From a virus, in the IMG/VR virus record IMGVR_UViG_3300047297_000070, positions 1 to 31,581 of that record: 31,581 nt of DNA; one strand, given 5' to 3'. The notes under the pieces are model-generated. The model was not told the origin of the DNA. It was given only the letters and a program-made list of their open reading frames with translations, and did not search any database. Both the position numbers and the translations under genes were made by a program. How positions within the stretch are numbered: position 1 is the stretch's first letter; each line of letters starts with the position of its first letter. Positions 2,771-22,200 of the stretch are shown one piece after another.

Positions 2771-5209
2771 TTATAAACCTTTTAGTCTAATTACCGTTGT
2801 GAAATTTCCCCAAGTATCTACATCAAATTCTTGATTGCCTTTAGTCTGCAAACGAATCTTGAATGTTTCCTTTGTATAGCCATTATTGAATGGATTTGTA
2901 ATAATTAACAAAGCCTCCGTCCCATCTGCTGATAATTTATAAGCTGAAATAGGTGCCTGACGATTGTAAAGCATTACCGGATAATTTGTATTGTTAGCAT
3001 CTGAATCAGATGTCCACGCACTATTCCAATATAACTGCGATCTAACCCAAGCCGTGTCCGCTGCAACAATATCCCTATTTTGTTCTACTTGCCAATAACC
3101 AACATAAAGCCAATCGAAAACCCCGTTGTCTAATTGCATTAAATTGCCAAAACCATAATAGAAATTCGATAAACTTGTAGGATTATCGCAAGGACCGTGA
3201 TTGTATTCCCCACCCATTGCATTCGGATCATCCCACATTGATAAACCATCGCAGTAGGCAAAACCCCAAACCGCTAACGATTGAAAATGGCTTGCACATT
3301 GTGAAGGATTATCTTTAATAATAGAACCAAATTCAGTCCCCTTTTTTTCGTGATGAAAGTCAGAGAAATAAGGCAATGGTTCCATATATCTCCACGAGTA
3401 TAAAGACGCACGCTTTGTTTTGGCATCATCTACGCTTAATATTTGCCCTAATATCTTTTTAGTAATATCGTAATTATGAACGACAGAATAGAAATACCAT
3501 TTAGTAATTATCGAGTTTAAATACGACGAGCAAAAGAATAACCCCCAACCATTTTTAGCACCTTCATAGAAAGCGTTATAATTGAGCATTGTTGTTCTGC
3601 TTATCGTTCCATTAATATAGTAATTATGATAATCGCTATATAAATCAGTCGTTTTTACCGTTGCAACAGATTCCGTAGGTGCTACATATAACCATCCACT
3701 AGTTCCACTACCAAAATATTCAGATTTGTAAATCCCTTCTTGATAAATACTAAACTTTGGAATTACTCCGCCACTTGCTGCGTAGTTGTTAGCAATTGAA
3801 TAAGCCTTGCAACTTGCAAAAAGTCCATCCATTGCAAGACCAGTATTTAAACGCTTTCTACCAACCCCAATAAACGCTTCTCCATCGTGTTCAATGATTG
3901 CAGCGTGAGATAAGTTATTAGGATTTTCGCCCGTGTTTAATGGCTTAAACATTCCTAAATATTGGTTCGCTGGACTTACATCATAATGACCATCGCCCGA
4001 ATCAATTGCAGTTGTCCATTTGTATGGATTAACTTCATTGTAAGTTTTGTTAATCGTTCCGTTGTTAAATGTCCACGTTGCTCTTTCGCCAGCATCCGTG
4101 ATTAATAACGATTCTAAAACTGCGCAACACCAAGACTGGTCTACTAATGAATCCGTAATATAGTTAGGATCAGATGTTGCACCTCCCGATTTAACATAAG
4201 CAGTTCCGGTACGAATAAACGTATCAGCGTGATGATATAATCTATCTGCAATAGGCACATTTTCATAAACGTTGGCAGTAGCTACCCCATATTCATAGGT
4301 CGTGAAGAAATTTGAATTAACTCCAGATACTTGACCGGGAACAAAGTTCACAAAGAATGTAGGCTTGCGTTTTGTTAATCCCTTGTTTTGTCTTCTTGGA
4401 TTTCTAAAGGTTCTTGTTACTGCACCTGAGCCACCATTTGTAAACGTTCCGCTATCTTTAACCACGCAGTCAAGCAATGGATTAATAAGCATTGCAAACT
4501 CCTTCTTTACTCCATTTCTGTCGTAAATCGGTAACGCATCAGGCATCCTTCTAAAAAATGTCGGATATTCTTCCGCTTCTTTAGGTATTAAATAATCAGG
4601 TCTAAAATAATAGTTTACTTTCCCAACCGTTAGCGTTCTATTTGGATCGGCTGCAATGTGAATTGTTGAACTCAATAATGTACCATCTTCAAAGCCGGTA
4701 ACTCCAAAAACCGTACCCCAATTTCCATTTCTAATCACTAAATCATATCCTTTCATTGCGGATAAATCAATATTTGTAATTGCAGATGATGAAATAGTTC
4801 CGTTTTCAATTAACCATCTTCTGCTCGAACTCCACGTTGTATCAGTCAAAAGATTTGTTGAAGGATTAAGGGAATAAGTAATATCTAATCCGTTATTTGT
4901 TTGTGATCCAGAATCTGAAGAAAAATTCATTATTGAACCATCGGCAAAAGACACATCCATCCCAGCGTTTACCAATTCGGTTTTGCTTCCGACAATCTTG
5001 CCATCACTTCCAAGCGTAACGTAATAGCTTTTGAACTGCGTCGGAATAACATAGTTTCCAGCACTTGCTAAAATCGTTTTGGCTTCATTCGTGTAAAATA
5101 TGGTTGTTGAATCCAACAAGTTATTATTCGCATATAAGATTTGTGAATCTACATCCGTTGTCGTACTTCCTAATTTTGTTCTTGCGTCTGTTATGCTTGA
5201 GAATGCCAT
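2771..5209 (-). CDS. Large tail fibre or tail-tip protein (812 aa)
   Basis: No named family was recognised. The N-terminal 65 residues (DSTTIFYTNEAKT, ASAGNYVIP, GSDGKIVGSK) resemble the short domain repeated at the C-terminus of the adjacent tail protein. The rest is rich in Trp, Tyr, Asn and Gly, typical of beta-rich or carbohydrate-handling surface proteins. The centre (about 330-730) has Cys and Trp clusters such as SLVDQSWCCAVLESL and CDGLSMWDDPNAMGGEYNHG, which could be a glycoside-binding or glycosidase-like barrel; this is a guess from composition. It starts one base after the previous stop. A host-recognition role is likely from context. Confidence 0.75.
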   Translation of the reverse strand: MAFSSITDARTKLGSTTTDVDSQILYANNNLLDSTTIFYTNEAKTILASAGNYVIPTQFKSYYVTLGSDGKIVGSKTELVNAGMDVSFADGSIMNFSSDSGSQTNNGLDITYSLNPSTNLLTDTTWSSSRRWLIENGTISSSAITNIDLSAMKGYDLVIRNGNWGTVFGVTGFEDGTLLSSTIHIAADPNRTLTVGKVNYYFRPDYLIPKEAEEYPTFFRRMPDALPIYDRNGVKKEFAMLINPLLDCVVKDSGTFTNGGSGAVTRTFRNPRRQNKGLTKRKPTFFVNFVPGQVSGVNSNFFTTYEYGVATANVYENVPIADRLYHHADTFIRTGTAYVKSGGATSDPNYITDSLVDQSWCCAVLESLLITDAGERATWTFNNGTINKTYNEVNPYKWTTAIDSGDGHYDVSPANQYLGMFKPLNTGENPNNLSHAAIIEHDGEAFIGVGRKRLNTGLAMDGLFASCKAYSIANNYAASGGVIPKFSIYQEGIYKSEYFGSGTSGWLYVAPTESVATVKTTDLYSDYHNYYINGTISRTTMLNYNAFYEGAKNGWGLFFCSSYLNSIITKWYFYSVVHNYDITKKILGQILSVDDAKTKRASLYSWRYMEPLPYFSDFHHEKKGTEFGSIIKDNPSQCASHFQSLAVWGFAYCDGLSMWDDPNAMGGEYNHGPCDNPTSLSNFYYGFGNLMQLDNGVFDWLYVGYWQVEQNRDIVAADTAWVRSQLYWNSAWTSDSDANNTNYPVMLYNRQAPISAYKLSADGTEALLIITNPFNNGYTKETFKIRLQTKGNQEFDVDTWGNFTTVIRLKGL

Positions 5210-12222: not shown

Positions 12223-13368
12223 TTAAATTACTATGCTTGGGTCTAACTTCTTCATTCTATCCACAATCACTTGGCAATATTTCGGATCGTATTCAACTAA
12301 ATATCCTTTGCGATTAAGTTGATGGCAAGCAACCATTGTTGTTCCTGATCCTCCAAATGCATCTGCAACTATATCTCCAATCTTAGATGAATTTTTAATC
12401 TGATAGGCAAATAATTCTACTGGTTTCATTGTAGGATGCTCTGCATTTCTTGATGGTCTATTAAAATCTAAAACAGTAGTTTGTTTTCTATCTGAATACC
12501 ATTGATGTGCTGCCCCTTCTTTCCAACCATATAAGCAAGGCTCGTGCTTCCATTGATAATCTTGCCTTCCCATAACCATACTATTTTTAACCCAAATCAA
12601 ACATTGCTTAACCATTATACCAGCATCTTTCATCGCTTGCCTAAAATTAGCACCTTCGCTATCTGCGTGCCAAACATACCAAGCTCCTCCAGCTTTTGAA
12701 TAAGACCCTAAAGCTGTGTAAAAATCATAAAGGAATTGATAAAAATCTTTATCCCCCATATTATCGTTTTCAATAGTTAAGGCATCTTTTGTTTTACCTT
12801 GATAAGCTACATTGTATGGAGGATCAGTTACAACCATATCAGCTAATTGATCTGCAAACAATTTTCCAAAAGTATCTGTTTGAGTGCTATCTCCGCAAAT
12901 TAATCTGTGCTGACCTATTTCAAATATATCACCTAAAACAATATCAGTTTCTATTCCACCTTCTGGAACATCATAGTTGTCATCATCAGCTTCGCCTTCG
13001 TCTTTAATATCAAACACCGGTAAATCTAAACCCCACGCTTCCAATTCTTCTGCATCCCATTCATTGGCTAACATATCCCAATCCCATTCGCCTCCGCTTG
13101 TATTATCCTTAATCAAAAACTCCCTTTGTTTTTCCTCTGATAAATCGGTAACAATAACCGGAATCTCTTTAATGCCAGCTTCTTTGCAAGCACGGAACCG
13201 CATATTACCACCCAAGATTATCATATCCTTATTGACCACAATAGGTCGGATATCTAACATCTCAGGGAAATCCTTAATCGACTGAACTAACTTCTTAAAT
13301 TTATCGTCCTTGATTAATCGAGGATTATTAGGATTCAGTTTAATATCGGTAATCTTTTTTAATTCCAT
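12223..13368 (-). CDS. ParB-like domain fused to DNA methyltransferase
   Basis: This 381-residue protein has two parts. Residues 1-105 form a ParB/sulfiredoxin-like domain (LNPNNPRLIKDDKFKKLVQS, RPIVVNKDMIILGGNMRFRA with the GG-N-R pattern). Residues 140-381 form an N6-adenine/N4-cytosine methyltransferase of the beta order: catalytic TDPPY (181-185) first, AdoMet-binding DAFGGSGTT (336-344) later. It probably protects phage DNA from host restriction, or marks it, at sites set by the target domain. The fusion occurs in phages and mobile elements near terminases, as here. The target sequence cannot be read from the protein. Confidence 0.92.
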   Translation of the reverse strand: MELKKITDIKLNPNNPRLIKDDKFKKLVQSIKDFPEMLDIRPIVVNKDMIILGGNMRFRACKEAGIKEIPVIVTDLSEEKQREFLIKDNTSGGEWDWDMLANEWDAEELEAWGLDLPVFDIKDEGEADDDNYDVPEGGIETDIVLGDIFEIGQHRLICGDSTQTDTFGKLFADQLADMVVTDPPYNVAYQGKTKDALTIENDNMGDKDFYQFLYDFYTALGSYSKAGGAWYVWHADSEGANFRQAMKDAGIMVKQCLIWVKNSMVMGRQDYQWKHEPCLYGWKEGAAHQWYSDRKQTTVLDFNRPSRNAEHPTMKPVELFAYQIKNSSKIGDIVADAFGGSGTTMVACHQLNRKGYLVEYDPKYCQVIVDRMKKLDPSIVI

Positions 13369-15090: not shown

Positions 15091-15912
15091 TTAGTCAGTA
15101 CAAAATCCAGCTTGACATCCACTTCCAGTTCCAAAGAAAAAGTCTTGTTGCAAGCCAATGGTTTTAAATTGATAGTAAGTTCCTTCTTTCTTCCATCGCT
15201 TATTCTTTGATTCTTGCGATGCAAACCATTCCATTTTTTCAGGCTCTAAATCCCAGTTCTTTCTTAATTGTTGCAATGGTTTATGAAAGCATCCAACACA
15301 ATTTGAATCAGCTGGAAATATAAGATTGGTTGTATCTACCCATTTTTTTACATCGTAATGAGTAATTTTATTCTCAATCAAAGGAAAATATCCTTCTCGC
15401 CATTCTATTTCTTCCCATTTGTTCCTTATGCCTCCGCCTTGTTTACCTACTATTCCTTTGAATGATGTTGAAAATCTATCTGCTCGTTCCATTTCATCAT
15501 ATCTAAATCCAATTCCCATCTTTACTTTTTCGCCAATGTTTTTAAACCACCAGTCCCAAATAGGACGCATCTTCATTTCAGTCGTGCAGAATCTCCATTG
15601 TTGATTTGGTAATCCTTTGCCTCCGGTGGCTTTACGATTTACTTCTTCAAATGTGTTACCAGTTACCCAAATTATCTCTTTACCTATTAATTGCTCTAAA
15701 TCAATTACCGCTTTTAATGTAACATCTGATTCAGCCGTAGCAATAAATTCTTGACCTATCTTATCTGAAATAAATTGAATTATCTTTGCATCCTTTGGAC
15801 TGCTATTTTTATCTTCAATTCGTATTAAAGAAAAGATATTAAAGTCTGCTGGATAATGGTAGGCTAAATAACTTGATGTCTTGCCACCACTCAAAGAATT
15901 AATTGTTTTCAT
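15091..15912 (-). CDS. PAPS reductase-like / ATP-pyrophosphatase family enzyme
   Basis: This 273-residue protein starts with the nucleotide-binding PP-loop SLSGGKTSSYLA (residues 6-17) of the adenine nucleotide alpha-hydrolase/PAPS reductase superfamily (CysH/DndC-like). It has Cys clusters: RFCTTEMKMRP, NCVGCFHKP and C-terminal GSGCQAGFC, which could hold an iron-sulphur cluster. Phage members are usually annotated as PAPS reductase, but sulfate reduction is not proven; tRNA thiolation or DNA sulphur chemistry are alternatives. No recognisable DndB/D/E or other sulphur-modification partners are nearby. It overlaps the gene upstream by 14 bp. Confidence 0.85.
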   Translation of the reverse strand: MKTINSLSGGKTSSYLAYHYPADFNIFSLIRIEDKNSSPKDAKIIQFISDKIGQEFIATAESDVTLKAVIDLEQLIGKEIIWVTGNTFEEVNRKATGGKGLPNQQWRFCTTEMKMRPIWDWWFKNIGEKVKMGIGFRYDEMERADRFSTSFKGIVGKQGGGIRNKWEEIEWREGYFPLIENKITHYDVKKWVDTTNLIFPADSNCVGCFHKPLQQLRKNWDLEPEKMEWFASQESKNKRWKKEGTYYQFKTIGLQQDFFFGTGSGCQAGFCTD

Positions 15913-18210: not shown

Positions 18211-18996
18211 TTATTCTGTTGGTTTGATTTTTCCTTCTTGATCTAATCGACAATCAAAATCAACTAATTGATTTATAAATTGAATATATCCTTGTGTTTT
18301 GCAATGATACTTACGTTCTTCAATGTCTTCGATAGACGAATATTTATTCCAAAGTTCTATTCTTTCTTGCGTTGATAGGGATTGAATGCCAAGTTTATCA
18401 AGATAATCCCATAATACCGATAAACCTCCAGCGATAAAATTGAATGATTTTTCTTCCTTTCTTGCTTTATCTATTTGATCCGCATACATATTAACTGTTT
18501 CAATTGCTTGTTTTTTAAGGTCAGAATCATTTGGTACTTCTTTTTTTTCTTCAACTGGCTTGGCATTTGTTACCTTTCTCATCACTTCACTCTTTTCTAA
18601 ATTGTATTTCTTAACCCAAATCACAAAGTTAGATGGATTCCAAAATACATTTGATTCGTGTTCCTTTAGATAATTACCATCAAGACCATTTTTCAAAGCA
18701 AGCATAACTTCGTCCTCAGTTAAAAAATCAAACTTACCAAGATCCCCAAGTATCATTTGAGTTTCAACGGTATCCTCGTGCTTGGCTCTTTCTTTTAATC
18801 CAAGTCTAACCTTAGCCATTGAAATAATTGTGTTGGCTATTCTTAATTTTTCTTTTTCTGACAAGTACATTATTTTTTGCTTTGTACTTGCCTGATAAAT
18901 TATTGTTTCGGATTTAGTTAGCTTGCTATCTGCTAAGATTGGCTCCGAATATTTTTCAACGCTTTGAGATGTCGAAGGGATTAACGTAAGTTCCAT
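18211..18996 (-). CDS. Replication-associated protein, unnamed (261 aa)
   Basis: No family was recognised with confidence. The N-terminal third (about 45-130) has LSEKEKLRIANTIISMAKV and FDFLTEDEVMLALKNGLDG, then WNPSNFVIWVKKYNL. A Lys/Glu-rich linker follows, then a helical C-terminal region. It overlaps the replication organiser-like gene by 41 bp and they probably act together, for example as initiator and helicase loader; that is inference from order. No Walker motifs are visible, so it is not an ordinary helicase or DnaC-type loader. Confidence 0.75.
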   Translation of the reverse strand: MELTLIPSTSQSVEKYSEPILADSKLTKSETIIYQASTKQKIMYLSEKEKLRIANTIISMAKVRLGLKERAKHEDTVETQMILGDLGKFDFLTEDEVMLALKNGLDGNYLKEHESNVFWNPSNFVIWVKKYNLEKSEVMRKVTNAKPVEEKKEVPNDSDLKKQAIETVNMYADQIDKARKEEKSFNFIAGGLSVLWDYLDKLGIQSLSTQERIELWNKYSSIEDIEERKYHCKTQGYIQFINQLVDFDCRLDQEGKIKPTE

Positions 18997-19735
18997 TTTC
19001 TATTTGTGCTAAAAGTTCTTCATAAATTTTTTGTTGTTGCAAAAGACCTTTGGTCATCTTTCCGATTGGTGGCTCTAAATTAGATTTAGGTTTATTGTTT
19101 TCTTTAGGTGCAAATAATCCTTGATAATTATTTGAGATTGAATGGTTTATTGCTTTCTCTAAATCAATATTACTAAAAGATTCCCATTCTTTAAACAATT
19201 GTTCCTTTCCAATTTGTGTGTACTTAGAACGTTTTTGTTTCTTATAATCAAACCACTTATTAAAAAGAATATCACGTTCCGTAGGAATGTAAAATGCTTC
19301 TTCTTTTTCTTCTTCTTCTTGGTATTCTTTTTCTTTTTCTTTTTCTTCTTCTTCTTGTGGATGTGTATCCATACTGTATAGATACTCTATCAATACTCTA
19401 TTTTTGACCTTTAGAAGCTCTTTATCCACGCAAGCCGTAACTTTAGGCGATGTTGAGTCATTATACTTAACCCAGTTTAATAAAGCGATTTCATTGGTTT
19501 CTTTAGAGAATCTGATTTTGTTTTGTTCCTCAAAGAATGAGATTAATTTCAATACGGTTTCTTGATTATAACCAGTATCAAAAGACATTTTCCGAATTGA
19601 TGTTTCGTAAATTCCACATTGCGTTGTCTTGTCGTTAGTCATCAGATACAAGTAGAAATACTTTTGTTCTGGTGTCAATTCTCCGACAAACGAATCCGAC
19701 CAGAAGGTAACGGAGATTTTGCGAAATGCTGCCAT
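18956..19735 (-). CDS. Replication initiator / replisome organiser-like protein
   Basis: The chosen start is ATG 19735 (MAAFRKISVTFWSDSFVGEL), giving 259 residues; an upstream ATG at 19804 would translate through a terminator hairpin and is rejected. Residues 1-95 resemble the N-terminal winged-helix domain of phage replisome organisers (FWSDSFVGELTPEQKYFYLY, GIYETSIRKMSFDTGY, LLNWVKYN). A Glu/Lys low-complexity linker follows (about 130-150), then a second domain (FNKWFDYKKQKRSKYTQIGK, ISNNYQGLFAPK). It should bind the origin and recruit host replication proteins. The promoter and structured RNA just upstream suggest its expression is specially controlled. Confidence 0.75.
   Translation of the reverse strand: MAAFRKISVTFWSDSFVGELTPEQKYFYLYLMTNDKTTQCGIYETSIRKMSFDTGYNQETVLKLISFFEEQNKIRFSKETNEIALLNWVKYNDSTSPKVTACVDKELLKVKNRVLIEYLYSMDTHPQEEEEKEKEKEYQEEEEKEEAFYIPTERDILFNKWFDYKKQKRSKYTQIGKEQLFKEWESFSNIDLEKAINHSISNNYQGLFAPKENNKPKSNLEPPIGKMTKGLLQQQKIYEELLAQIENGTYVNPFDISKR
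19297..19357. repeat. Polypyrimidine (TTC-rich) tract inside the replication gene
   Basis: About 60 bases are almost pure C/T on the plus strand (TTC and TTTTTC repeats), broken only by one GGTA. On the coding strand this is GAA/GAG/AAA and encodes the Glu/Lys linker of the replication protein. Such tracts can form triplex DNA and are prone to length change. Confidence 0.8.
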
Positions 19736-19744
19736 AATTAATTT

Positions 19745-19803
19745 AAAAATAAAAATGCCTCGTAAATCAATTGGCTCTCGACTTCCAATGTCATTACAAG
19801 GCA
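19745..19803 (-). terminator. Rho-independent terminator/attenuator before the replication gene
   Basis: The minus-strand RNA has a 10-bp stem UGCCUUGUAA (19803-19794) / UUACGAGGCA (19765-19756) with one G-U pair, a 4x4 internal loop UGAC/UGAU with tandem G-A mismatches, an inner stem AUUGG/CCAAU and a 10-nt loop AAGUCGAGAG, then UUUUUAUUUUU (19755-19745). The G-U pair would be a C-A mismatch in plus-strand RNA, so the element acts on leftward transcripts. It ends ten bases before the ATG at 19735 and can limit both promoter-proximal and read-through transcripts. Confidence 0.75.
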
Positions 19804-19841
19804 CTTAAGATTTTGAATCGCTATAATGTCGAGAGGCGATC
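19745..19841 (-). ncRNA. Structured leader RNA / candidate small RNA with kissing loops
   Basis: A transcript starting about seven bases after the -7 box would be near 97 nt. Hairpin 1 is at its very 5' end: stem GAUCGC (19841-19836) / GCGAUU (19821-19816) with a 14-nt loop. Hairpin 2 is the terminator described at 19745-19803. The loop of hairpin 1 contains CUCUCGAC (19835-19828) and the loop of hairpin 2 contains GUCGAGAG (19782-19775): a perfect 8-nt complement, which allows an intramolecular kissing interaction or a dimer. With its own promoter and terminator it could be a free small RNA, an attenuator for the replication gene, or both. No known RNA family was recognised. Confidence 0.6.
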
Positions 19842-19847
19842 TTGATT

Positions 19848-19878
19848 CAAATATAAAACTATTTTTTGGATTTGCAAA
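19848..19878 (-). promoter_or_regulatory. Bacteroidota-type promoter (TTTG-19-TATATTTG)
   Basis: On the minus strand a -33 box TTTG (19878-19875) is followed after 19 bases by TATATTTG (19855-19848), a perfect match to the Bacteroidota primary sigma consensus TTTG / TAnnTTTG. It overlaps the last codons of the 88-residue gene. It points into the structured RNA and the replication gene. Confidence 0.75.
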
Positions 19879-20125
19879 CTCTTCTTTGAAAATATCCTAC
19901 CCAATAAGGATGTTCTTCTTCAAACAATCTTGCGTAATCAGATGAATAACTATTGTTCAATTTCCATCCATCATTACCACTAATCATTGTCTGAAATCTG
20001 ATGTACTCAAAGATTTGCTTGGCACCAATACGTTTGTAGTTTCTGCTAATTAGCATCTTGGCTAACTTCTTAAACTCTTGATAAATTGCTGGATTGCTTT
20101 CGTGATACTTTTCGAAATTTTTCAT
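19859..20125 (-). CDS. Conserved phage protein (88 aa), function unknown
   Basis: The sequence has NPAIYQEFKKLAKMLISRNY, QIFEYIRFQTMIS, WKLNNSYSSDYARLFEEEHP and an aromatic/basic end (YWVGYFQRRV). The pattern of an EYIRFQT helix followed by a LNNSY..YARLF region is common in phage replication clusters, without known function. It follows an A/T-rich leader. The promoter for the structured RNA sits in its 3' end. Confidence 0.75.
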   Translation of the reverse strand: MKNFEKYHESNPAIYQEFKKLAKMLISRNYKRIGAKQIFEYIRFQTMISGNDGWKLNNSYSSDYARLFEEEHPYWVGYFQRRVCKSKK

Positions 20126-21885: not shown

Positions 21886-22016
21886 TGTGCTGATAAGATT
21901 ATAGCTGCGAAGGCAAAGAAGCCAATGATACCTACTACAATGATGCCGATGGCTAATGGTATGCACTCAGGATCTTGCTTGTGCATTTCGATGGTGTACT
22001 CGATTAATTTTTTCAT
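21882..22016 (-). CDS. First early gene: membrane microprotein (44 aa)
   Basis: This is the first frame after the early promoter. MKKLIEYTIEMHKQDPECIP is a charged head and LAIGIIVVGIIGFFAFAAII is a single glycine-containing transmembrane helix. Its stop overlaps the next ATG (ATGA). Being first in the early unit it would be made soon after infection. A role at the host membrane, such as exclusion, is only inference. Confidence 0.6.
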   Translation of the reverse strand: MKKLIEYTIEMHKQDPECIPLAIGIIVVGIIGFFAFAAIILSAQ

Positions 22017-22033
22017 TTTGATAAGGTTTATTA

Positions 22034-22065
22034 AATAGCTTTGTTGCTATTGTGATACAAATATA
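22034..22065 (-). promoter_or_regulatory. Early promoter -7 box with 5'-terminal hairpin
   Basis: On the minus strand TATATTTG (22065-22058) matches the Bacteroidota -7 box TAnnTTTG. The region 19 bp upstream is T-rich (TTTT where TTTG is expected). Six bases after the box a hairpin AAUAGC-AACAAA-GCUAUU (22051-22034) begins, probably at the first transcribed bases. The first gene starts at 22016. Confidence 0.65.
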
Positions 22066-22128
22066 GAACGAAGATTTGGAATAAAAAAATATTTTTAAAC
22101 TTTTTTTTAATTTATTTTCATAAACAAA

Positions 22129-22157
22129 AATGCCCCCAAGAATATCCTGAAGGCATT
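22129..22157 (-). terminator. Strong rho-independent terminator ending the late transcripts
   Basis: The minus-strand RNA forms a 13-bp stem AAUGCCUUCAGGA / UCUUGGGGGCAUU with loop UAU, including G-U pairs that would be C-A mismatches in plus-strand RNA; the stem runs into UUUUUG. It lies about 44 bases after the metallophosphoesterase stop and upstream of the early promoter, so it separates late from early transcription. Between it and the promoter lies an A/T stretch (22070-22128) that holds no gene. Confidence 0.8.
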
Positions 22158-22200
22158 AACTTAAATAAACCTATTAAAATGAAACAACCTAAAAACAATA

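Follow-up and report, generated by a model that had tools for sequence, protein, structure and literature searches.

In the attenuators of pT181 repC and pIP501 repR (see also PMC4878617; PMC4981023), a hairpin leader with an intrinsic terminator stands directly before the replication initiator, and loop pairing is central to control. The locus analyzed here likewise has a leader terminator directly before a replication initiator gene. It appears to differ from the plasmid systems in two ways. They use an antisense RNA from the opposite strand, whereas here both complementary loops lie in one sense RNA; and they alternate between a terminator and an antiterminator fold, whereas the best fold of the window RNA keeps the terminator. 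By reading, a promoter of the TTTG/TATATTTG type was seen on the sense strand only.

The pRNA of phi29, also a phage RNA, has a pair of complementary loops that change in concert from phage to phage, and covarying complementary loops of two hairpins are found here too. However, pRNA loops pair between molecules on the portal ring, and pRNA is longer, serves packaging and has no terminator hairpin as partner, whereas the element presented here adjoins replication genes and not packaging functions. The large terminase of the window contig belongs to families (phrog_3717, phrog_2) other than the phi29 type. The CI RNA of phage P4 and the C4 immunity RNAs of P1 and P7 are small RNAs that end transcription into replication or early genes by pairing. 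Those RNAs pair with separate leader targets, whereas the partner indicated here is the RNA's own terminator loop. In HK022, an early transcript of the phage opens at its 5′ end with the two hairpins of the put RNA, which act on transcription, but the put hairpins antiterminate through the polymerase and have neither loop complementarity nor a terminator hairpin. Purine and lysine riboswitches resemble the element in having a kissing-hairpin leader, and some of the elements described below carry a loop-E-like AGUA/GAA; in contrast to those riboswitches, no multi-helix junction, conserved ligand pocket or Rfam match was seen here.

The sequence-only reading had recognized no known family, and our searches agree. 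Rfam 15 at gathering score gave no match in the whole window or in 14 relatives including isolates (146,614 bases), and no description of such an element was found in the open-licence literature searched. Weak Rfam matches near the element at loose E-values (MIR821, IS009) look like chance. No credible close DNA relatives were found among annotated phages and plasmids. A covariance model (R1) returned no match in 395 Bacteroidota genomes, which is uninformative given its strict filters and lack of a positive control.

Results

Anatomy of the Locus

The window is the whole 31,581-base virus record. Direct reading of its minus strand from 19878 to 19745 gives a two-hairpin element running from a promoter to a U-tract, and all features below lie on that strand. 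The −33 element TTTG (19875–19878) sits inside the 3′ end of the upstream gene and is followed, after a 19-nt spacer, by the −7 element TATATTTG (19848–19855). The TTTG/TAnnTTTG promoter is the Bacteroidota type; from it, and from the relatives described below, we infer which host the window phage has. The RNA is expected to start near 19841–19844; the predicted product (19745–19841) would be ~97 nt long and end ~10 nt before the replication initiator gene. At its 5′ end, hairpin P1 (19816–19841) is predicted to fold with the stem GAUCGC/GCGAUU (19841–19836/19821–19816) and a 14-nt loop. In this loop lies K1 (19828–19835; DNA CTCTCGAC, RNA CUCUCGAC), defined by sequence and covariation and followed by a conserved AUUAUA. 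A linker of 9 nt leads to the terminator hairpin P2 (19753–19806), folded as an outer stem, an internal loop UGAC/UGAU, an inner stem and a 10-nt apical loop that holds K2 (19775–19782; DNA GTCGAGAG, RNA GUCGAGAG). K1 and K2 are exact complements over 8 nt, and a search of the window for a second copy of the K2 region found this single site. P2 continues into UUUUUAUUUUU, with the terminator U-tract and expected 3′ end at 19745–19755; it is thus the G+C-containing hairpin followed by a U-tract of an intrinsic terminator, although a simple terminator scan, whose loop limit is 8 nt, misses it.

The downstream gene (18956–19735, minus strand, ATG at 19735) encodes a DnaA-like/DnaD-like replisome organizer of 259 aa (phrog_6251, 8.9e-44; phrog_1701, 4.5e-30), and no promoter is seen from the U-tract to this start codon. 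The upstream gene in the ORF list (19859–20125, minus strand) encodes an 88-aa protein of unknown function (phrog_13625, PHROG match 2.5e-19), with homologues in Polaribacter, Pelagibacter, Prochlorococcus, Mesorhizobium, Tunturiibacter and Mycobacterium phages. Elsewhere, the window encodes a fusion of a ParB-like nuclease and a DNA methyltransferase (12223–13368) and a phosphoadenosine phosphosulfate reductase-like protein (phrog_424; 15091–15912).

A second promoter lies upstream at ~22055, the genes are co-directional, and transcripts from it would also run into P2. This arrangement would fit a plain insulating terminator between two early operons, coupled to a promoter, in which loop pairing merely strengthens the terminator. 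We consider such an insulator very improbable, because the promoter precedes the terminator instead of following it, and a plain terminator needs neither P1 nor a kissing partner. This second promoter, also of the Bacteroidota type, lies in a region (22016–22180, minus strand) where a 5′ hairpin (AATAGC/GCTATT) is present but a terminator is not; its leader contains AATAAACC, which is complementary to GGTTTATT on the upstream side of the promoter.

Folding of the Predicted RNA

RNAfold returned P1 and P2 with open loops at −24.5 kcal/mol (z −2.85), and none of 200 shuffles was as stable. Sequence reading and folding thus bear out the sequence-only reading in its proposal of a promoter-driven RNA of ~97 nt with two hairpins and 8-nt complementary loops. 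The terminator hairpin that it placed at 19756–19803 is also present, with a slightly longer extent. A nested K1–K2 helix reaches −13.4 kcal/mol, against the −24.5 of the two hairpins. Because forced nesting costs 11 kcal/mol, the K1–K2 pairing in the window is best understood as a kissing contact added to intact P1 and P2 hairpins. Since the best fold contains both hairpins and leaves their loops free, such kissing is compatible with termination. No evident alternative antiterminator fold emerged from folding the window RNA. Of the attenuator with a loop-pairing switch suggested earlier, the position before the replication gene stands, whereas these energies lend no support to a classical loop-pairing antiterminator switch in the window. 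The loops of Tenacibaculum phage JQ and Flavobacterium phage 11b are longer or richer in G+C, and there the nested form can compete with the hairpins (−20.0 vs. −15.8 in JQ, −20.3 vs. −16.2 in 11b), so that a switch between folds is possible in these phages.

For two random AT-rich loops as large as these, the chance of a perfect 8-nt complement is ~0.0006. A descriptor combining promoter, P1, terminator and a loop complement of at least 7 nt matched 70 times (59 with promoter) in 1.39 Mb of AT-rich sequence and 30 times (3 with promoter) in 8.35 Mb of Markov-shuffled control, a ratio that shows reality and not independence, as many of the real matches are relatives. Strict scans of the whole genomes of JQ, Freya_1 and Danklef_1 gave one match each, always at the replication module. 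Pattern scans of viral contigs at the DNA level (exact loops or type B terminator, see below) returned mostly unrelated contigs and are biased to fixed loops; for this reason, conservation is judged here mainly from loci retrieved through their proteins.

Occurrence among Viral Relatives

The replication protein of the window fetched 58 viral loci and the upstream protein 8. In many of them the element immediately precedes the initiator or is separated from it by one small ORF. Two forms predominate. Type A is the window form, with a pyrimidine-rich K1. Type B has K1 sequences such as GUGAGAG, GUAGGAG, GUCGGAG, GUCAGAG and GUGGUAG, with a matching K2 in a GCCAG/CUGGC terminator. In a third form (L039–L045) the loops are GUUGCAG/CUGCAAC or GUCGCAU/AUGCGAC. 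One locus (L002) has flanks near-identical to those of the window (94% and 96% protein identity), yet carries a type B element and an extra gene. No element was found at the more distant initiators L046–L059.

A second, distant initiator (phrog_2562, query L067) yielded 80 loci, in 76 of which the start could be placed. The element is present in all 76, either at the corresponding position or with an inserted gene in between, 68 of them found by scan within 700 nt and the remaining 8 by reading or farther upstream. A third initiator (query L062) yielded 80 loci, 54 close and 26 divergent. All 54 close loci have the element (49 by scan, 4 by reading and one on a contig cut inside the element); among the divergent ones (L460–L485), where most initiators directly follow the upstream gene, 4 have it (3 by scan, L473 by reading) and 22 do not. 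The element is thus not needed for replication, being missing from relatives in which the initiator abuts or overlaps the gene before it. The comparison thus presents an element that is common but dispensable, in loci that are clustered in few lineages and with several assignments resting on reading and not on the scan.

The replication origin of related phages often lies in or near the initiator gene. A constant association with initiator genes of different families could accordingly indicate a transcript at the origin that serves as primer or in origin opening. We give this origin-linked role hardly any credence, since the terminator ends the element before the initiator gene, extra copies precede HNH and MBL-fold genes, and some relatives do without it.

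Covariation of the Loop–Loop Pairing

In the type B alignment (n = 26), 28 pairs have 99.0% of their cells paired and 16 are changed on both sides; its loop–loop helix of 7 pairs is 100% paired, with 3/7 (24 cells) changed on both sides. The covariation score was reached by 0 of 500 shuffles, and sliding by 1–3 columns destroys it. In the type A alignment (n = 15), the loop–loop helix of 8 pairs is also 100% paired, 5/8 (25 cells) show compensatory change, and again 0 of 500 shuffles reached the score. Pairs of P1 are changed on both sides in 4/6 cases for type A and 9/11 for type B, and kinship among the aligned sequences inflates all of these counts. Unconstrained RNAalifold on the type A alignment, in which P2 is partly misaligned, returned the loop–loop helix alone. 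The compensatory changes that the first reading had proposed to look for in relatives are thus seen in both loops and in P1, and the loop complementarity, whose loss would have spoken against that reading, is kept in full in both alignments. In both types, it stops at the edges of the loops or close to them.

Two relatives, L117 and L330, differ at 4 of 16 loop bases, which make up two compensated pairs, and at none of 80 other bases. Judged from its sequence, this pair is a natural mutation test of loop pairing. The proposal that loops evolve faster than the rest holds for this pair and fails for type B as a whole (0.032 differences per site in the loops vs. 0.062 elsewhere). Two further candidates were dropped: a fixed trans-target seed, since type B has no conserved unpaired stretch, and an antiterminator pairing of the type B P1 5′ arm AAGCC with the terminator, as the arm is present in some members only.

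A two-pair switch of this kind fits a change of specificity, as might be seen if the RNAs made from many phage genome copies paired in trans with nascent leaders and altered termination, a dosage sensor giving copy-number feedback like that of pT181 and pIP501 from a self-complementary sense RNA. The location before replication initiators is in line with this, as are the presence of both complementary loops in every RNA and the unrelated loops of second elements within one phage (L314, L216, Freya, tooticki). We nevertheless find dosage sensing improbable, because cis pairing should beat trans pairing and type B loops do not change faster than the remainder.

Cultured Phages

Eleven isolated flavobacterial phages (elemoA, phi13:2, phi19:3, 11b, Harreka, tooticki, lillamy, hattifnatt, Freya, Danklef and JQ) carry before replication genes the same architecture, which occurs with ~20 different loop sequences. 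The earlier-seen isolates were JQ (GCAUCCUAC), the Polaribacter phages Freya and Danklef (GGUGGAA) and 11b (CGGGCAGG, relaxed scan). As a test of prediction, more cultured phages were fetched via the 11b replication protein, and the region before the replication gene was inspected. Seven carriers were found in this way: Cellulophaga phi13:2 and phi19:3 (CUCUCACAA/UUGUGAGAG, with a weak P1 stem), Flavobacterium elemoA (UGAGAGC/GCUCUCA), Olleya Harreka (GUGGUGG/CCACCAC), and Flavobacterium tooticki, lillamy and hattifnatt (GUGAGACG/CGUCUCAC). They amount to about four independent cases, because the three LMO6/LMO9 phages share an element, as do phi13:2 and phi19:3, and all but Harreka and lillamy were identified partly by reading the gap, as the limits of the scan missed them. 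Flavobacterium phage 1/32 has no element and no gap before its initiator, and none was found in a Porphyromonas phage, a Bacteroides LoVEphage, or Geobacillus, Lactobacillus, Vibrio and Enterococcus phages with related initiators.

In nearly all forms, P2 is built in two tiers, with outer stem, internal loop, inner stem and K2 in the apical loop, and this is kept among type A relatives. The tandem G·A internal loop (UGAN/UGAN) pointed out at first is present in the window, in JQ and in the second element of tooticki and hattifnatt; it does not extend to most near relatives of the window, which have UGAA/UGGA instead. Harreka, L218, L473 and 11b have AGUA/GAA, a loop-E-like pattern. Only a few ordered P2 internal-loop motifs occur across phages (L320, L495, L218, L473; window 19766–19793), and they are perhaps protein-binding or bending sites.

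Position, Promoter and Downstream Genes

Position was assessed in 83 distinct element cores, a few of them probably spurious. An ORF starts 4–24 nt (median 14) after P2 in 79/83. TAnnTTTG was found between P2 and the start codon in 0/83 and, as an exact match, in the leader just before P1 in 65/83; a TTTG lies 18–21 nt from the −7 box in 41/83. With this spacing and no promoter box in the gap, the downstream gene appears to depend on read-through. The element therefore holds the place of an attenuator, since transcription of the next gene must pass the terminator, and it should limit that transcription unless read-through is allowed. The tight spacing may merely reflect compact phage genomes. 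What follows the element is most often a replication initiator, from one of several PHROG families; the other genes in this place are small inserted ORFs, HNH endonucleases, the DnaG-type primase of L314 and the MBL-fold gene after the second Freya element. Inserted ORFs are placed after the terminator and start again ~14 nt beyond it.

Some genomes have more than one element. In L314, a Saprospiraceae MAG contig, two kissing elements with unrelated loops (2067–2190 and 3910–4001) stand one before the DnaG-type primase and the other before the initiator. Freya_1 has a second element (L317:32530–32625; CCGCCAAG/CUUGGCGG) before an MBL-fold gene, and Danklef has homing-endonuclease genes in that place instead. 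Kissing elements also directly precede HNH endonuclease genes (L496:106–185, L499:106–185, L216 ~3076–3160 and L061 after 3290), which suggests that homing genes insert behind, or carry, kissing leaders.

The element could also be a stable small RNA, free and with a promoter and terminator of its own, acting in trans on phage or host RNA or protein, protected by its kissing fold and placed before replication genes as a reflection of early expression. Such an RNA would be suited by a hairpin at the 5′ end, a terminator at the 3′ end and a compact fold, and so would it be by the variety of downstream genes (replication genes, HNH endonucleases, small ORFs) and the exchange of type A and B elements between near-identical flanks (L002 and the window). 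Against it, there is no conserved single-stranded seed, the type B linker varies apart from the loop complementarity, and the next gene still needs read-through, as no other promoter was seen. We therefore regard an independent trans-acting RNA as rather unlikely, if the strongest of the alternatives.

Discussion

In our opinion, somewhat the better bet is that the element is a leader RNA of the phage and attenuates the transcription that enters the replication module. It is supported by an element that tracks replication-initiation genes of several different PHROG families and by the confirmation of its predicted place in isolates. Termination in vivo, regulated read-through and an influence of kissing on termination are what we infer from this arrangement. 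RNA polymerase would start at TTTG-19-TATATTTG, making P1 at once and then P2. As the apical loop of P2 leaves the polymerase, the waiting P1 loop would pair with it over 7–10 bp to give a compact kissing fold around the terminator. Most transcripts would then end at the U-tract as the ~97-nt RNA, and the replication initiator would be reached by read-through only. In relatives, the gene so reached would be a different initiator, a primase, an early gene inserted there or an HNH endonuclease. At termination, the kissing helix could make P2 fold faster or more stably, or it could be a site where something acts. Negative feedback by released copies pairing in trans is speculation. Read-through could also be constitutive or driven by a phage antiterminator protein, in which case the short RNA would be a mere by-product.

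To our knowledge, hardly anything is known of how tailed Bacteroidota phages time and limit replication. In this regard, the fuller proposal, which we put forward tentatively and hold at somewhat less than an even chance, is that the element represents a class of phage leader RNA that has not been described before and is general among phages of Flavobacteriia; its 5′ hairpin would kiss the loop of its own terminator and set read-through into the replication genes, and the co-changing loops would define specificity types, perhaps as a copy-number or superinfection signal in trans. RNA parts could be drawn from the natural sets of matched loops. If true, the design would be unusual for an attenuator, with a hairpin kissing its own terminator, and the presence of so compact an RNA device at the replication module of cultured phages makes the control of their replication directly testable by end-mapping and reporters.
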